Origin: Antedon mediterranea | Taxonomy: Eukaryota; Echinodermata; Crinoidea; Comatulida; Antedonidae | Assembly: GCF_964355755.1 (NCBI RefSeq) | Contig: NC_092678.1 | Span: forward strand, 4,560,922 to 4,624,921 | Direction of reading: 5' to 3' | Length of the DNA stretch: 64,000 nt | Shown: positions 3,977-48,829 of the stretch, in pieces | How positions within the stretch are numbered: position 1 is the stretch's first letter | How the letters are laid out: every line of letters starts with the position of its first letter | Position numbers and translations under genes: made by a program | The notes under the pieces: model-generated | Database searches by the model: none | What the model was told of the DNA's origin: nothing | The model's input: only the letters and a program-made list of their open reading frames with translations

Positions 3977-4122
3977 GGCCTAATACAGAAGCTTCCTCAC
4001 TTTACTCATAGCAAGTAACCCACGAGTGCAGGCAAACGGTGAAATCCCTAAATAACTTCAAAGGGTAATACCGCTTGGTGTGAGTAGAATCAAGTTGTAC
4101 ACATTTTGTTAAAATAAAATTA

Positions 4123-4563
4123 ATGATGTCATTCAATCCAAAACATGATAGCGCTTATAATAGCTCTGGTGCGGACGGGGCGCGGGTCGTTCATGGTCTG
4201 GTGAAAACTGAAGAAATTCCTCGTCGGGCAGCAGAGAAGGTTAGGCCTAGCACAGATGATACCCAATTGTTACGGGACGAAATAGTTTTATTAAAAAAAG
4301 ATTTAAAATGTGTACACCTTCTAGAACAGTTGTTAAAAGACCGCGATAAATCATTGAACCATTTAGAGAAGACGGTAAAAAGCTATAAAATGTGTATTGA
4401 ACATTTACAATGGCGGTTACATAAACACAACTTGGACTCATCTGTTGATTTAAAAGAACACGAGATATTCGAGCCTGGCCACGATAAACAGATATTAAAA
4501 TCTTTGTTGGACGACGCTATACGATATAAAAGACTACTTGATGAAAATTACAGCTCCGAAGAG
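4123..4563 (+). CDS. UBAN-domain coiled-coil protein, exon 1 (residues 1-147)
   Basis: First coding exon of the NEMO/optineurin/ABIN-like gene completed at 5540-6889. Two tandem ATGs open it; the first is used here because the frame upstream is not protein-like. It ends in GAG followed by donor GTAAGA at 4564, phase 0. The 147 residues start with a polar, probably disordered segment of about 50 residues. They continue as a heptad-rich coiled coil (LLRDEIVLLKKDLKCVHLLE, then LLKDRDKSLNHLEKTV). Reading on past the donor gives a low-complexity tail and an early stop, supporting the splice. Intron 1 (4564-5539) is 976 bp. Confidence 0.75.
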
Positions 4564-26216: not shown

Positions 26217-26374
26217 TAGAGCAGGAGCCCAGAGGGGTCAACCTAGCTGGAAAGTTAACCAATTTCTATGCATGTGGCAATTATCTACGTACATATCAAT
26301 GTATGGAAATGACAGTCTGGCGCGTTTCTTTTGGTGGGTGTGGCTAGGAGGGACATTGTAAAGGGTAAAAAAAA

Positions 26375-27420
26375 TGAGCTAGATCAGCTGAAAAGTTAAC
26401 CCCATGAAATATTTTGCAAATAGTTTGACATAGAGTGAAATATAAGGAATGGCCATTGCCAGACGATTTTAGTGGTGGGGGGTGCCTGCCAGACCCCTAT
26501 TTCTGGGGGGTCAAAAATGAGCTAGATCAGCTTAAAAGTTAACCCTTTGAAACTGGTGGGAAAATGTTCAATAAACTCATAATTATCATGAATGACCATT
26601 GCCAGACATTTTCAGTGGTGGATTGTGCCCGCCAGACCCCGTCAAACACCCAACCCCCCAAAAATTGAGCTAGATCAGCTGAAAAGTTAACCCCATGAAA
26701 TATTTTGCAAATTGTTTGACATAGAGTGAAATATAATGAATGAATATCGCCAGACGATTTTAGTGGTGGGGGGTGCCTGCCAGACCCCCATTTCTGGGGG
26801 ACCAAAAATGAGCTAGATCGGCTTAAAAGTTAACCCTCTGAAACTGGTGGGAAAATGTTCAATAAACTCATAACTATCATGAATGACCATTGCCAGACAT
26901 TTTCAGTGGTGGATTGTGCCCGCCAGACCCCGTCAAACACCCCACCCCCAAAAAATTGAGCTAGATCAGCTGAAAAGTTAACCCCGTGAAATATTTTGCA
27001 AATTGTTTGACATAGAGTGAAATATAATGAATGGACATTGCCAGACGATTTTAGTGGTGGGGGTGCCTGCCAGACCCCATTTCTGTAGGGCCAAAAATGA
27101 GCTAGATCAGCTTAAAAGTTAACCCTCTAAAACTGGTGGGAGAATGTTCAATGTACTCATAACTATTATGAATGACCATTGCCAGACATTTTCAGTGGTG
27201 TATTGTGCCCGCCAGACCCCGTCAAACACCCCCACTCCCAAAAATGAGCTAGATCAGCTGAAAAGCTAACCTTTTAAAACATGCTGTAAAATGTTCAGCA
27301 TGATCCCTAGTATAATAAATGACCATTTAAAGTGGTGGGTTGTGTCCGCCAGACACCCATTAAACACCCATTAAACACCCACCCACCCCTCCCCCCCCCC
27401 CCCCCCCCCAAAAAATGAAC
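26375..27420 (+). repeat. Left-arm ~145-bp tandem repeats of the transposon
   Basis: Successive GAGCTAGATCAG starts fall near 26377, 26520, 26667, 26810, 26957, 27098 and 27246, so adjacent units are about 145 bp and alternate A/B types, a 290-bp higher-order period. Units next to the core are more diverged. Confidence 0.8.
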
Positions 27421-29445: not shown

Positions 29446-29779
29446 AATGCATTTAATAAAATAAGCCTTTGTTTTGAAATGTTGATGATAATCAACAACA
29501 TTATTCTCTAGGGAACCATTATAGAAGATAAGTCAGTTTCTAAATATGTCCTTTAACTGCATAAACCAATTGACTAATTGATTTACTTTTTTCCGCACCA
29601 CAAAAAGACAAAGAAGTCTTACCTACCTATTTTACACTATGTTGAACTTATACCATAGTGGCACATTTGTGAAGTAGGCCTAGGTAAGGGGTTGGATGGA
29701 TGGGGTGGTTCTATAATGAGCAAATAAAAATGTCTGGTAATGACAATTCATATCCTTGACAGTATACTACACATTTTCC

Positions 29780-30560
29780 CACCAGTTTTACAGTGGTTAA
29801 CCCTTGGCCTAATCTGGGTCATTTTTGGGGGTTGGGTGTTTGAGGGGGCCTGGTGGACACAACCCACCACTTAAAATGTCTGGCAATGGTCATTTATTAT
29901 ACTAGGGATCATGCTGAACATTCTACAGCATGTTTTAAAAGGTTAGCTTTTCAGCTGATCTAGCTCATTTTTGGGAGTGGGGGTGTTTGACGGGGTCTGG
30001 CGGGCACAATCCACCACTGAAAATGTCTGGCAATGGTCATTCATAATAGTTATGAGTACATTGAACATTTTCCCACCAGTTTTAGAGGGTTAACTTTTAA
30101 GCTGATCTAGTTCATTTTTGGCCCTCCAGAAATGGGGGTCTGGCAGGCACCCCCCACCACTAAAATCGTCTGGCAATGTCCATTCATTATATTTCACTGT
30201 ATGTCAAACAATTTGCAAAATATTTCATGGGGTTAACTTTTCAGCTGATCTAGCTCAATTTTTTGTGGGTGGGGTGTTTGACGGTGTCTGCCGGGCACAA
30301 TCCACCACTGAAAATGTCTGGCAATGGTCATTCATGATAGTTATGAGTTTATTGAACATTTTCCCACCAGTTTTAGAGGGTTAACTTTTAAGCTGATCTA
30401 GCTCATTTTTGGCCCTCCAGAAATGGGGGTCTGGCAGGCACCCCCCACCACTAAAATCGTCTGGCAATAGCCATTCCTTATATTTCACTCTATGTCAAAC
30501 AATTTGCAAAATATTTCATGAGGTTAACTTTTCAGCTGATCTAGCTCATTTTTTTTTACC
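29780..30560 (-). repeat. Right-arm ~145-bp tandem repeats of the transposon
   Basis: Inverted counterparts of the left-arm units, again alternating A/B types. They meet the unique terminal segment (about 30560-30705) that matches 26219-26370 in reverse. Confidence 0.8.
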
Positions 30561-45868: not shown

Positions 45869-45963
45869 CCAAAACTTATGGTAAAAGATCTTCTGGATTT
45901 GGTTTCTTCACATTTCTTACTGAAGGAGAAGGGTTACTTTGGACTATCATTTAAAGATACCAA
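45869..45963 (+). CDS. FRMD4-like gene, exon 3 (F1 lobe)
   Basis: Acceptor TTCTTCAG ends at 45868; donor GTAAGT starts at 45964; enters in phase 0, leaves in phase 2. Encodes PKLMVKDLLDLVSSHFLLKE then KGYFGLSFKDT, the F1 alpha helix and LKEKxYFGL strand characteristic of FRMD4A/B (human PKLLAKELLDLVASHFNLKE). The donor is the first unit of the minisatellite that fills the following 1.27 kb. Confidence 0.85.
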
Positions 45964-47231
45964 GTAAGTATCTAGGAAAATAGTTAGTTTGGACTTTCAG
46001 CAAGTAAGTATGCTTTAGAAGAAGAATTAGTTTTGACTTTCAGCAAGTAAGTATACTGTAAAAGAAAAGTTAGTTTTGACTTTCAGCAAGTAAGTATACT
46101 GTAAAAGAAGAATTAGTTTGAACTTTCAGCAAGTAAGTATACTGTAAAAGAAGAATTAGTTTGAACTTTCAGCAAGTAAGTATACTGTAGAATAAGAGTT
46201 AGTTTGAACTTTCAGCAAGTAAGTATACTGTAGAATAAGAGTTAGTTTTGACTTTCAGCAAGTAAGTATACTGTAGAATAAGAGTTAGTTTGGACTTTCA
46301 GCAAGTAAGTATACTGTAAAAGAAGAATTAGTTTTGACTTTCAGCAAGTAAGTATACTGTAGAATAAGAGTTAGTTTGAACTTTCAGCAAGTAAGTATAC
46401 TGTAAAAGAAAAGTTAGTTTTGACTTTCAGCAAGTAAGTATACTGTAAAAGAAGAATTAGTTTTGACTTTCAGCAAGTAAGTATACTGTAGAATAAGAGT
46501 TAGTTTGAACTTTCAGCAAGTAAGTATACTGTAAAAGAAGAATTAGTTTGGACTTTCAGCAAGTAAGTATACTGTAAAAGAAGAATTAGTTTTGACTTTC
46601 AGCAAGTAAGTATACTGTAGAATAAGAGTTAGTTTGAACTTTCAGCAAGTAAGTATACTGTAAAAGAAAAGTTAGTTTTGACTTTCAGCAAGTAAGTATA
46701 CTGTAAAAGAAGAATTAGTTTTGACTTTCAGCAAGTAAGTATACTGTAAAAGAAGAATTAGTTTGAACTTTCAGCAAGTAAGTATACTGTAAAAGAAGAA
46801 TTAGTTTTGACTTTCAGCAAGTAAGTATACTGTAAAAGAAGAATTAGTTTTGACTTTCAGCAAGTAAGTATACTGTAGAATAAGAATTAGTTTTGACTTT
46901 CAGCAAGTAAGTATACTGTAGAATAAGAGTTAGTTTGAACTTTCAGCAAGTAAGTATACTGTAGAATAAGAGTTAGTTTTGACTTTCAGCAAGTAAGTAT
47001 ACTGTAAAAGAAGAGTTAGTTTGGACTTTCAGCAAGTAAGTATACTGTACAAGAAGAGTTAGTTTTGACTTTCAGCAAGTAAGTATACTGTAGAATAAGA
47101 GTTAGTTTTGACTTTCAGCAAGTAAGTATACTGTAGAATAAGAGTTAGTTTTGACTTTCAGCAAGTAAGTATGCTGTACAAGAAGAGTTAGTTTTGACTT
47201 TTAGCAAGTAAGTATGCTGTAGAATAAGACT
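45961..47231 (+). repeat. 43-bp minisatellite carrying splice-site sequences
   Basis: About 30 tandem units; CAAGTAAGTA occurs about 30 times between 45961 and 47210, spaced 43 bp on average. The consensus includes GAATTAGTTTTGACTTTCAG followed by CAAGTAAGTATACTGTA. It begins at the authentic exon-3 donor, and the end of exon 3 (TTTGGACTATC through CAAGTAAG) resembles the unit, so the array probably arose by duplication of the exon-intron junction. Variants differ at a few fixed places (AAAAGAAG versus GAATAAGAG; TTTGAAC, TTTGGAC and TTTTGAC) and appear shuffled. Confidence 0.9.
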
Positions 47232-48651
47232 TAGTTTGGACCCATGAAGTTTCAATACTACTACTCTACATTGCCAATGCTTTCAACATATTACATTTGT
47301 TAAATGTCTTTGATCTGTAAGGCTTGTAATCAGTTAAAAATGTTTTGGCATTAATAACTTTGTAAGATATTATTGAACATTACCAGCTTATCAAACACTT
47401 TTACAAGTACTTGAAGAGATAACAAAATAACTTATCAACTTTGATAATAGTCGGGTAAACAAAGCGAATTTTCCCATAGATTATTTGGTAAAAGGATTTT
47501 TAACCTATTCACATTACACTAATAAGATTTCAAACTTTTATAGGCCATTTTCAAGATTGTTTTCAATAATTCAATTTGAGCACATTTTGATTTGAAATCA
47601 AAAGAAAAAACACTTCGTAATCTTGTCCATTTTTTAGATTTATATTTTGACATAAAAATATTAAATTTAGATTTTTACAAATATCAGTAGAGTGAATACT
47701 ATCCTACAATCTTTGTCTAAATTTTTGAAATAATTTAAATTTAATATTAATATTATAACTAATAGTAGAAAACAGTAAAAAACAGTAGAAAAAGACTGAG
47801 TGAATATTTGAGTTGAAACTGTTAAGTACATAGAGCTTAAGAAGATTTAAACTGTTCTTAAGCTGTTTCCTTTTACTGGTACAATTAAGCTGTTCCTTTT
47901 TCTGGAAACGCTATCTGATTGGTTGAACTAATGATTTAATCCTTTGAATAACTATTAAAATAAATTTGTGAAGTTGTATTTCAGGATCTACTAACTGTAC
48001 TTTACTATGTTAAACTATTTGATTTTGGTAACGTAGTAGAACCCCATTAAGGACCCAAAAGTAACCCCTAATTAGGGGTGACCTTTGAAAAGGGATTGGC
48101 TGTACTGTTGAAACTATTGCCCCTCATTCTTTTCCCATAATAGTGTCCTAAAGGAGTGGTTCTTATTTTTAAAAAGAAAACAATGGAGTTGTTCTGAAAA
48201 CAATGAAGCGTATTTCAATGCAGAAATGCAGATATTTTTTATGTTGAACTTCAGCATTGTAACTAGGTTACAGAAATTTTATGAAGAACGCCCTCTCTTG
48301 GCCTAGGTGCTACTTTCACAATTTCTGAAGTGAGACCTCTATTGACAGGTACTATTAATTAATACAGTTGAAGTGAGACCTCTATTATGCAGAATACAGG
48401 TATTAATACAGTTGAAGTGAGCCCTCAGGCATTGCAACAGCTTGTATGCTAACGGTTTCCCTATTTTACTAACAATAATAGTAATCCTGCCATTGTATTC
48501 TTGATCATAAAGTGGTTAGAACACAATAGACATATGCGTCAGACTGGTACATTACCATATCAAAGCAGCGTCTACTACATCTCAATGATAACTTGTTGCT
48601 TACAGGTAAACCAAACATCAGCTAACTGACCCATAAATTTTCTCATTGTAG

Positions 48652-48829
48652 TTCAAATATCATTTGGTTTGATCCTGAGCGTAAAATCAACGATTACAAC
48701 ATCCCGAAGAAGCCTGAGACGGTAACGTTAAATTTTGGCGTGCGGTGCTATATTGAGAGTATAACACATCTTGTGGATAGTGGTACGATAGAGTTGTTTT
48801 ACCTTCAAGCCAAGCTAGCCGTCTTCAAG
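48652..48829 (+). CDS. FRMD4-like gene, exon 4 (end of F1 and start of F2)
   Basis: Acceptor CTCATTGTAG ends at 48651; donor GTGAGT at 48830; enters in phase 2, leaves in phase 0. Encodes SNIIWFDPERKINDYNIPKK, then TLNFGVRCYIES and GTIELFYLQAKLAVFK. These match FRMD4A/B (PKKSGPVVLYFCVRFYIES; ATIELFFLNAKSCIYK). Confidence 0.85.

Follow-up and report, generated by a model that had tools for sequence, protein, structure and literature searches.

Why does a coding exon run straight into thirty identical 5′ splice sites, and what would the spliceosome do with them? The question arises from a 64,000-nucleotide stretch of the genome of the crinoid Antedon mediterranea (the window, G+C 32%), in which a 43-bp minisatellite on the plus strand starts at the end of a FERM-domain exon. 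An earlier note, made from the letters of this DNA, had proposed an array of acceptor-plus-donor cassettes.

A 43-bp array at the end of a FERM-domain exon

Counting the 11-mer CAAGTAAGTAT, which opens each unit, gave 30 copies from 45961 to 47205; their 29 intervals comprise one of 40 nt, the first, and 28 of 43 nt. TRF reports a 43-bp unit at 45982-47241 in 29.3 copies with 93% matches. Both results uphold the claim of an approximately 30-copy, 43-bp tandem array at an exon-intron junction. The end had been put at 47231, whereas TRF puts it at about 47241. A start at 45961 is right for the first CAAGTAAGTAT but not for the homology, which opens 43 bases earlier, in the exon at 45918. Elsewhere in the window, a related ~145/291-bp repeat forms arrays at 26370-27297 and 29771-30555, which run in opposite directions as judged by eye on the TRF consensus.

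The exons on either side of the array (Table 1), when joined, match FERM_N in Pfam (1.1e-11), and the 45963/48652 junction is ungapped in both alignments shown, one with a moesin/ezrin/radixin homolog and the other with a FERM/RhoGEF/pleckstrin-domain chain. The first donor had been called the true donor of FRMD4 exon 3. It is the donor of the FERM_N exon, but the labels "FRMD4" and "exon 3" come from the earlier reader, and the tools indicate a FERM-domain gene only; the name would be in keeping with FRMD4A. For a further exon near 52.5 kb, seen as an open frame, no Pfam family was matched. Reading past the first donor meets an in-frame stop at once (ACC AAG TAA).

Table 1. Features of the FERM-domain locus (window positions) and of related or comparable loci
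Feature	Location	Strand	Basis or remark
Coding exon, FERM-domain (FRMD4-like) gene; earlier reader's exon 3	45869..45963	+	FERM_N and ungapped junction
Exon tail, source of the repeat unit (authentic copy, unit 0)	45918..45963	+	Exon/unit match in register
Authentic donor GTAAGTAT	45964..45971	+	Sequence
30-unit array, 40 nt in the first unit and 43 nt thereafter	45961..47241	+	CAAGTAAGTAT count and TRF; last unit merges into unique sequence
Last unit and 3′ flank common to the second array	47205..47307	+	Aligns with L001 (reverse complement) 4076-4173; score 132, against at most 39 in 200 shuffles
Next coding exon (earlier reader's exon 4), acceptor ending at 48651	48652..48829	+	Sequence and alignments
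DHX8-like exon end and donor, 37-bp unit, ~22 copies, most of the intron filled	L004 1833-2773 (C1:17.776 Mb)		Alignment
TDP2-like exon end and donor, 31-bp unit, ~29 copies	L008 2048-2946 (C1:41.208 Mb)		Alignment
Abhydrolase-like exon end and donor, 49-bp unit, ~28 copies	L007 1626-3011 (C1:41.200 Mb)	reverse complement	Pfam
Homocysteine methyltransferase-like exon, three degenerate copies	L014		Pfam 1.6e-24, spans junction; copy/exon likeness by eye
37-bp donor array directly behind a TATA-like box, followed by a coding exon whose start resembles a signal peptide	L012 2897-3493 (C7:29.503 Mb)	reverse complement	Possible 5′UTR exon version (by eye)
32-bp donor-motif array right after an apparent retrotransposon reading-frame end	L011 2592-3616 (C3:18.962 Mb)	reverse complement	By eye

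The repeat unit reproduces the exon tail and its donor in degenerate form

In register with the donor, the exon stretch 45918-45949 (TACTGAAGG...ACTATCA) shares 23-26 of its 32 bases with each of the 28 full-length units. For the unit types, the best position elsewhere in the window reached 21/32 (62,645 positions on the plus strand and 62,613 on the minus strand), and the consensus score of 25 was not attained in any of 20,000 codon shuffles of the exon. A local alignment of the unit with the sequence that precedes the array likewise placed the match inside the exon and in register with the donor. The position scan and the codon shuffles decided the homology; a base-shuffle alignment test of unit against exon was unconvincing on its own (score 29, shuffle maximum 31). 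Because every full-length unit also holds a degenerate copy of the exon end, the claimed birth of the array at the exon-intron junction is supported, and the claim is sharpened in that the exon end itself is copied.

Between the 45918-45949 stretch and the donor, the exon carries 10 more bases than the unit (53 nt versus 43 nt), and the "acceptor" of the unit aligns with the exon sequence GGACTATCATTTAAAG minus 10 bases. Exon/unit identity is far lower than in the abhydrolase-like array described below, in which the first unit agrees at 40 of 40 positions. A three-unit periodicity is weak, with 7 of 25 matches at lag 3, a maximum equalled by 181 of 5000 shuffles.

These alignments bear directly on the proposal that each unit carries an acceptor-like site, three nucleotides and a donor, so that splicing might in principle include CAA microexons, and on a reading as recursive splicing through AG-CAA-GT cassettes. 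An acceptor-like stretch is indeed present in 29 copies, but its wording varies: it reads TTGACTTTCAG in only 16, and TGGACTTTCAG, TGAACTTTCAG and TTGACTTTTAG in four, eight and one of the other 13. No such stretch lies ahead of the authentic first donor. Units 1-29 all close with AG before the next CAA (28 CAG, one TAG). The stretches have 10-11 pyrimidines in the 15 nt before the AG, inside the range of 9-14 in 13 acceptors tabulated, and the pyrimidine tract alone therefore does not exclude acceptor use; yet the same AG aligns with exon sequence. Since each unit consists of exon tail and donor, the AG before CAA, or TTTCAG, is best read as a remnant of codons, which accounts for the AG as well. 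Microexon use would moreover require introns of 37 to 40 nt around a 3-nt exon, the FERM alignments shown would acquire a gap of one residue from the additional Asn, and the AG is gone in one of the seven full-length units of a second array. We regard microexons or recursive splicing at these cassettes as extremely doubtful.

Read on the minus strand, many of the units in 45961-47241 resemble an acceptor site, with CTAAC, a run of pyrimidines and ACAG; the purine-rich exon tail explains this antisense look.

A related array lies in an intron of a transporter gene

A related array with nine donors lies on the same chromosome at a distance of 17 Mb, in sense orientation and in the middle of an intron of an MFS-transporter gene. 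The exons joined across this intron match MFS_1 (2e-14), the first transporter exon matched no Pfam family, and the likeness to SLC16 was judged by eye. This array has an altered copy at its left edge and one 41-nt unit. It has in common with the FERM array the last unit and approximately 66 bp of 3′ flank beyond it; past 47307 and in the left flanks, local alignment gave nothing above shuffles. Because the unit holds conserved FERM coding sequence, we take the FERM gene as the likely source from which the second array was copied.

A mobile element or dispersed satellite with a 43-bp unit, landed by chance at a donor, would be the alternative, and a second array on the same chromosome with a common last unit and flank speaks for it. 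However, genome searches found, within their limits, no third locus with the 43-bp unit, the left flank is not common to the two arrays, and the unit matches a conserved coding exon that is presumably older. This alternative is very improbable. A dispersed transposon in particular was rejected: many copies with common ends would be expected of it, and the searches gave, within their limits, two loci that have only the right flank in common.

Exon-end arrays recur in the genome without exceeding controls

Loci were located through AGGTAAGT or AAGGTAAGT occurring twice within 20-50 bp, and 11 were taken from the matches listed, about the first 100 places, which lie on C1 only for AGGTAAGT and reach up to C7 for AAGGTAAGT. 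A single-pair match at C1:16.09 Mb and two short-unit repeats at C4:16.93 and 30.49 Mb fall outside these 11. Four of the 11 (L004, L007, L008, and L014) open at a coding exon with homology support and carry the exon tail in the unit (Table 1). As for the other seven, L012 likely starts at a 5′UTR exon (by eye), L005 is ambiguous, and L006, L009, L010, L011, and L013 have no visible exon, judged by eye from open frames only. The L011 array is perhaps a LINE tail expansion.

The DHX8-like exon aligns over 102 residues (6.7e-58), ungapped at the first-donor junction in the best alignment shown; the fragment matched no Pfam family, and its name rests on the protein alignment. DHX8 is a splicing helicase. 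The TDP2-like alignment (3.9e-35) has likewise no gap at this junction in the best alignment shown, with a sub-threshold Pfam match; this name, too, is taken from the protein alignment. For the abhydrolase-like exon, a Pfam match slightly below the cut-off (1.8e-5) spans the first-donor junction.

Pairs of AGGTAAGT gave 371 matches versus 1990 for the reversed pattern, and pairs of AAGGTAAGT gave 113 versus 1653; one composition-matched motif gave 665 and its reverse 421, much of it in GAT-rich repeats among the matches listed. These counts are of matches, not arrays, and single arrays weigh heavily in them. An excess of donor-motif arrays over control motifs was rejected, and we therefore claim recurrence rather than excess. 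A genome-wide class of AG-NNN-GTRAGT cassettes was rejected as well: 29 of its 31 matches lie within the FERM and transporter-intron arrays and two elsewhere, and the reversed pattern has 36.

Relation to described boundary repeats

Tandem duplications of exon-intron boundaries have been described in amphioxus as mirages, at Adh3 and the globins BflGb6 and BflGb9 (PMC3087553), with troponin C also named (PMC3902484); in the former, the units measure 10-72 bp at Adh3, 150-160 bp at BflGb6, and 157 bp at BflGb9. The term and the phenomenon are thus already in print, and the FERM array joins a described repeat type. It begins at the authentic boundary and lies within the intron, judging from sequence and the homology-based junction, and its unit holds both exon and intron sequence of that boundary, with CAAGTAAGTAT shared exactly. 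Like the amphioxus cases, it is a boundary tandem duplication with splice signals in many units and the authentic copy kept. Unlike them, it has 30 units that lack 10 exon nucleotides and differ from the exon at 6-9 of 32 positions, it has a related array in another gene, and it is known from sequence alone.

Other published repeats are similar in part. In lancelet PGBD5, with repeats of 60 and 108 bp, the first repeat abuts the splice site as it does here, but copy numbers are two to seven of 60 bp and three to six of 108 bp, depending on the assembly (PMC3902484). Human internal tandem repeats in segmental duplications include ~30-bp minisatellites at exon-intron boundaries; these average about four units and, unlike the FERM array, can form novel introns in recent paralogs (PMC2812944). 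A published duplication crossing an intron-exon boundary made a new intron, whereas none is indicated at the FERM array. That an array born from a splice junction is unusual, as the earlier note had it, is therefore only partly right, with mirages described in PMC3087553 and PMC3902484 and recurrence in the same genome. What is new here is the unit, identified from its alignment as a degenerate coding-exon tail plus donor. The literature searched, which covered few subscription titles, yielded no genome-wide survey of exon-end arrays and no copy in another gene.

The array donors are of medium strength and invariant

With the U1 5′ end ATACTTACCTG, read from one U1 gene of this genome (L002), the array donor has a U1 duplex energy of -8.7 kcal/mol, a medium strength. 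Five donors at homology-supported junctions range from -10.0 to -13.4 kcal/mol, although four of the five come from loci found with AGGTAAGT or AAGGTAAGT and are thus biased to strong sites. Two further donors, placed by eye, are stronger (-12.3 kcal/mol) and weaker (-5.0 kcal/mol) than the array donor. Ten donors were cut for this comparison and two (DHX8 next and SLC16 c), whose placement was wrong or unverified, left out. The U1 snRNA genes themselves form a tandem cluster at C5:15664856-15752909, with 42 scored matches and neighbours often ~1.70 or 1.86 kb apart.

Across the full-length units of the FERM array, the donor columns are invariant and 9 of the 32 other columns vary (chance 0.050 if columns are independent). 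After pooling with the second array, 0 of 15 variable columns fall in the donor (probability 0.0037 if columns are independent); the test left out two copies of the second array, the altered one at its left edge and the 41-nt unit, in which the 11th position is different. This suggests more conservation than a purely neutral array would have. Recent expansion, perhaps in blocks of three units, may account for the invariance. Among counted units of the DHX8-like (17/20), TDP2-like (27/28), and abhydrolase-like (7/17 of 49 nt) arrays, single units differ within GTAAGT.

Such invariance would suit a regulatory decoy, in which U1 snRNP on many of the 30 donors slows or diverts splicing and the copy number tunes productive FRMD4-like mRNA through stop-bearing wrong-donor transcripts. 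The donors are indeed identical and complementary to U1 at 10 of 11 bases (counted by eye), and an in-frame stop lies right behind the first. Their energy is, however, weaker than that of the five supported donors, biased as four of these are; the related array, with its nine donors, occupies the middle of an intron in an unrelated gene; and the amphioxus data suggest that mirages leave regular splicing undisturbed (PMC3087553, PMC3902484). We consider a decoy unlikely. Its stronger form, in which the 30 donors are kept identical as a copy-number-dependent brake on FRMD4-like mRNA by wrong-donor splicing and immediate stops, with the transporter-intron copy carrying the same brake, is quite improbable.

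Discussion

The exon origin of the unit, its register and copy number, and the related array in a second gene are established by the sequence. The array is most probably (about 0.8) a near-neutral exon-intron boundary minisatellite, or mirage, of a FERM-domain gene, removed with the intron that starts at the first donor. In this mechanism, the terminal ~46 nt of the exon would have been tandemly duplicated into the intron together with the donor, after which the unit would have lost 10 nt (from 53 to 43), diverged, and grown to 30 copies, possibly in part by three-unit blocks.

The spliceosome would take the exon-attached first donor and the acceptor at 48651, and the copies would leave with the intron. 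The simplest account is selection of the first donor together with its exon, with the remainder being intron, given the ungapped FERM, DHX8-like, and TDP2-like junctions and the Pfam matches spanning the abhydrolase-like and methyltransferase-like ones. A later donor would keep array sequence and meet the stop immediately, which should make such transcripts targets of NMD. Provided that the first donor wins, the array should be mostly neutral. From work by Eperon in 1993 on duplicated donors, winning of the first donor is reportedly not obvious.

Thirty identical 5′ splice sites behind one exon make a natural competition assay for donor choice, and because of the stop immediately past the first donor, blocking NMD would allow splicing errors to be counted. 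The DHX8-like, TDP2-like, and further exon ends in the same genome provide replicates of different age. The second array suggests that exon-end repeats need not stay in place; copies in the intron of another gene would distribute complete donor sites, which might serve as raw material for the gain of introns or exons.
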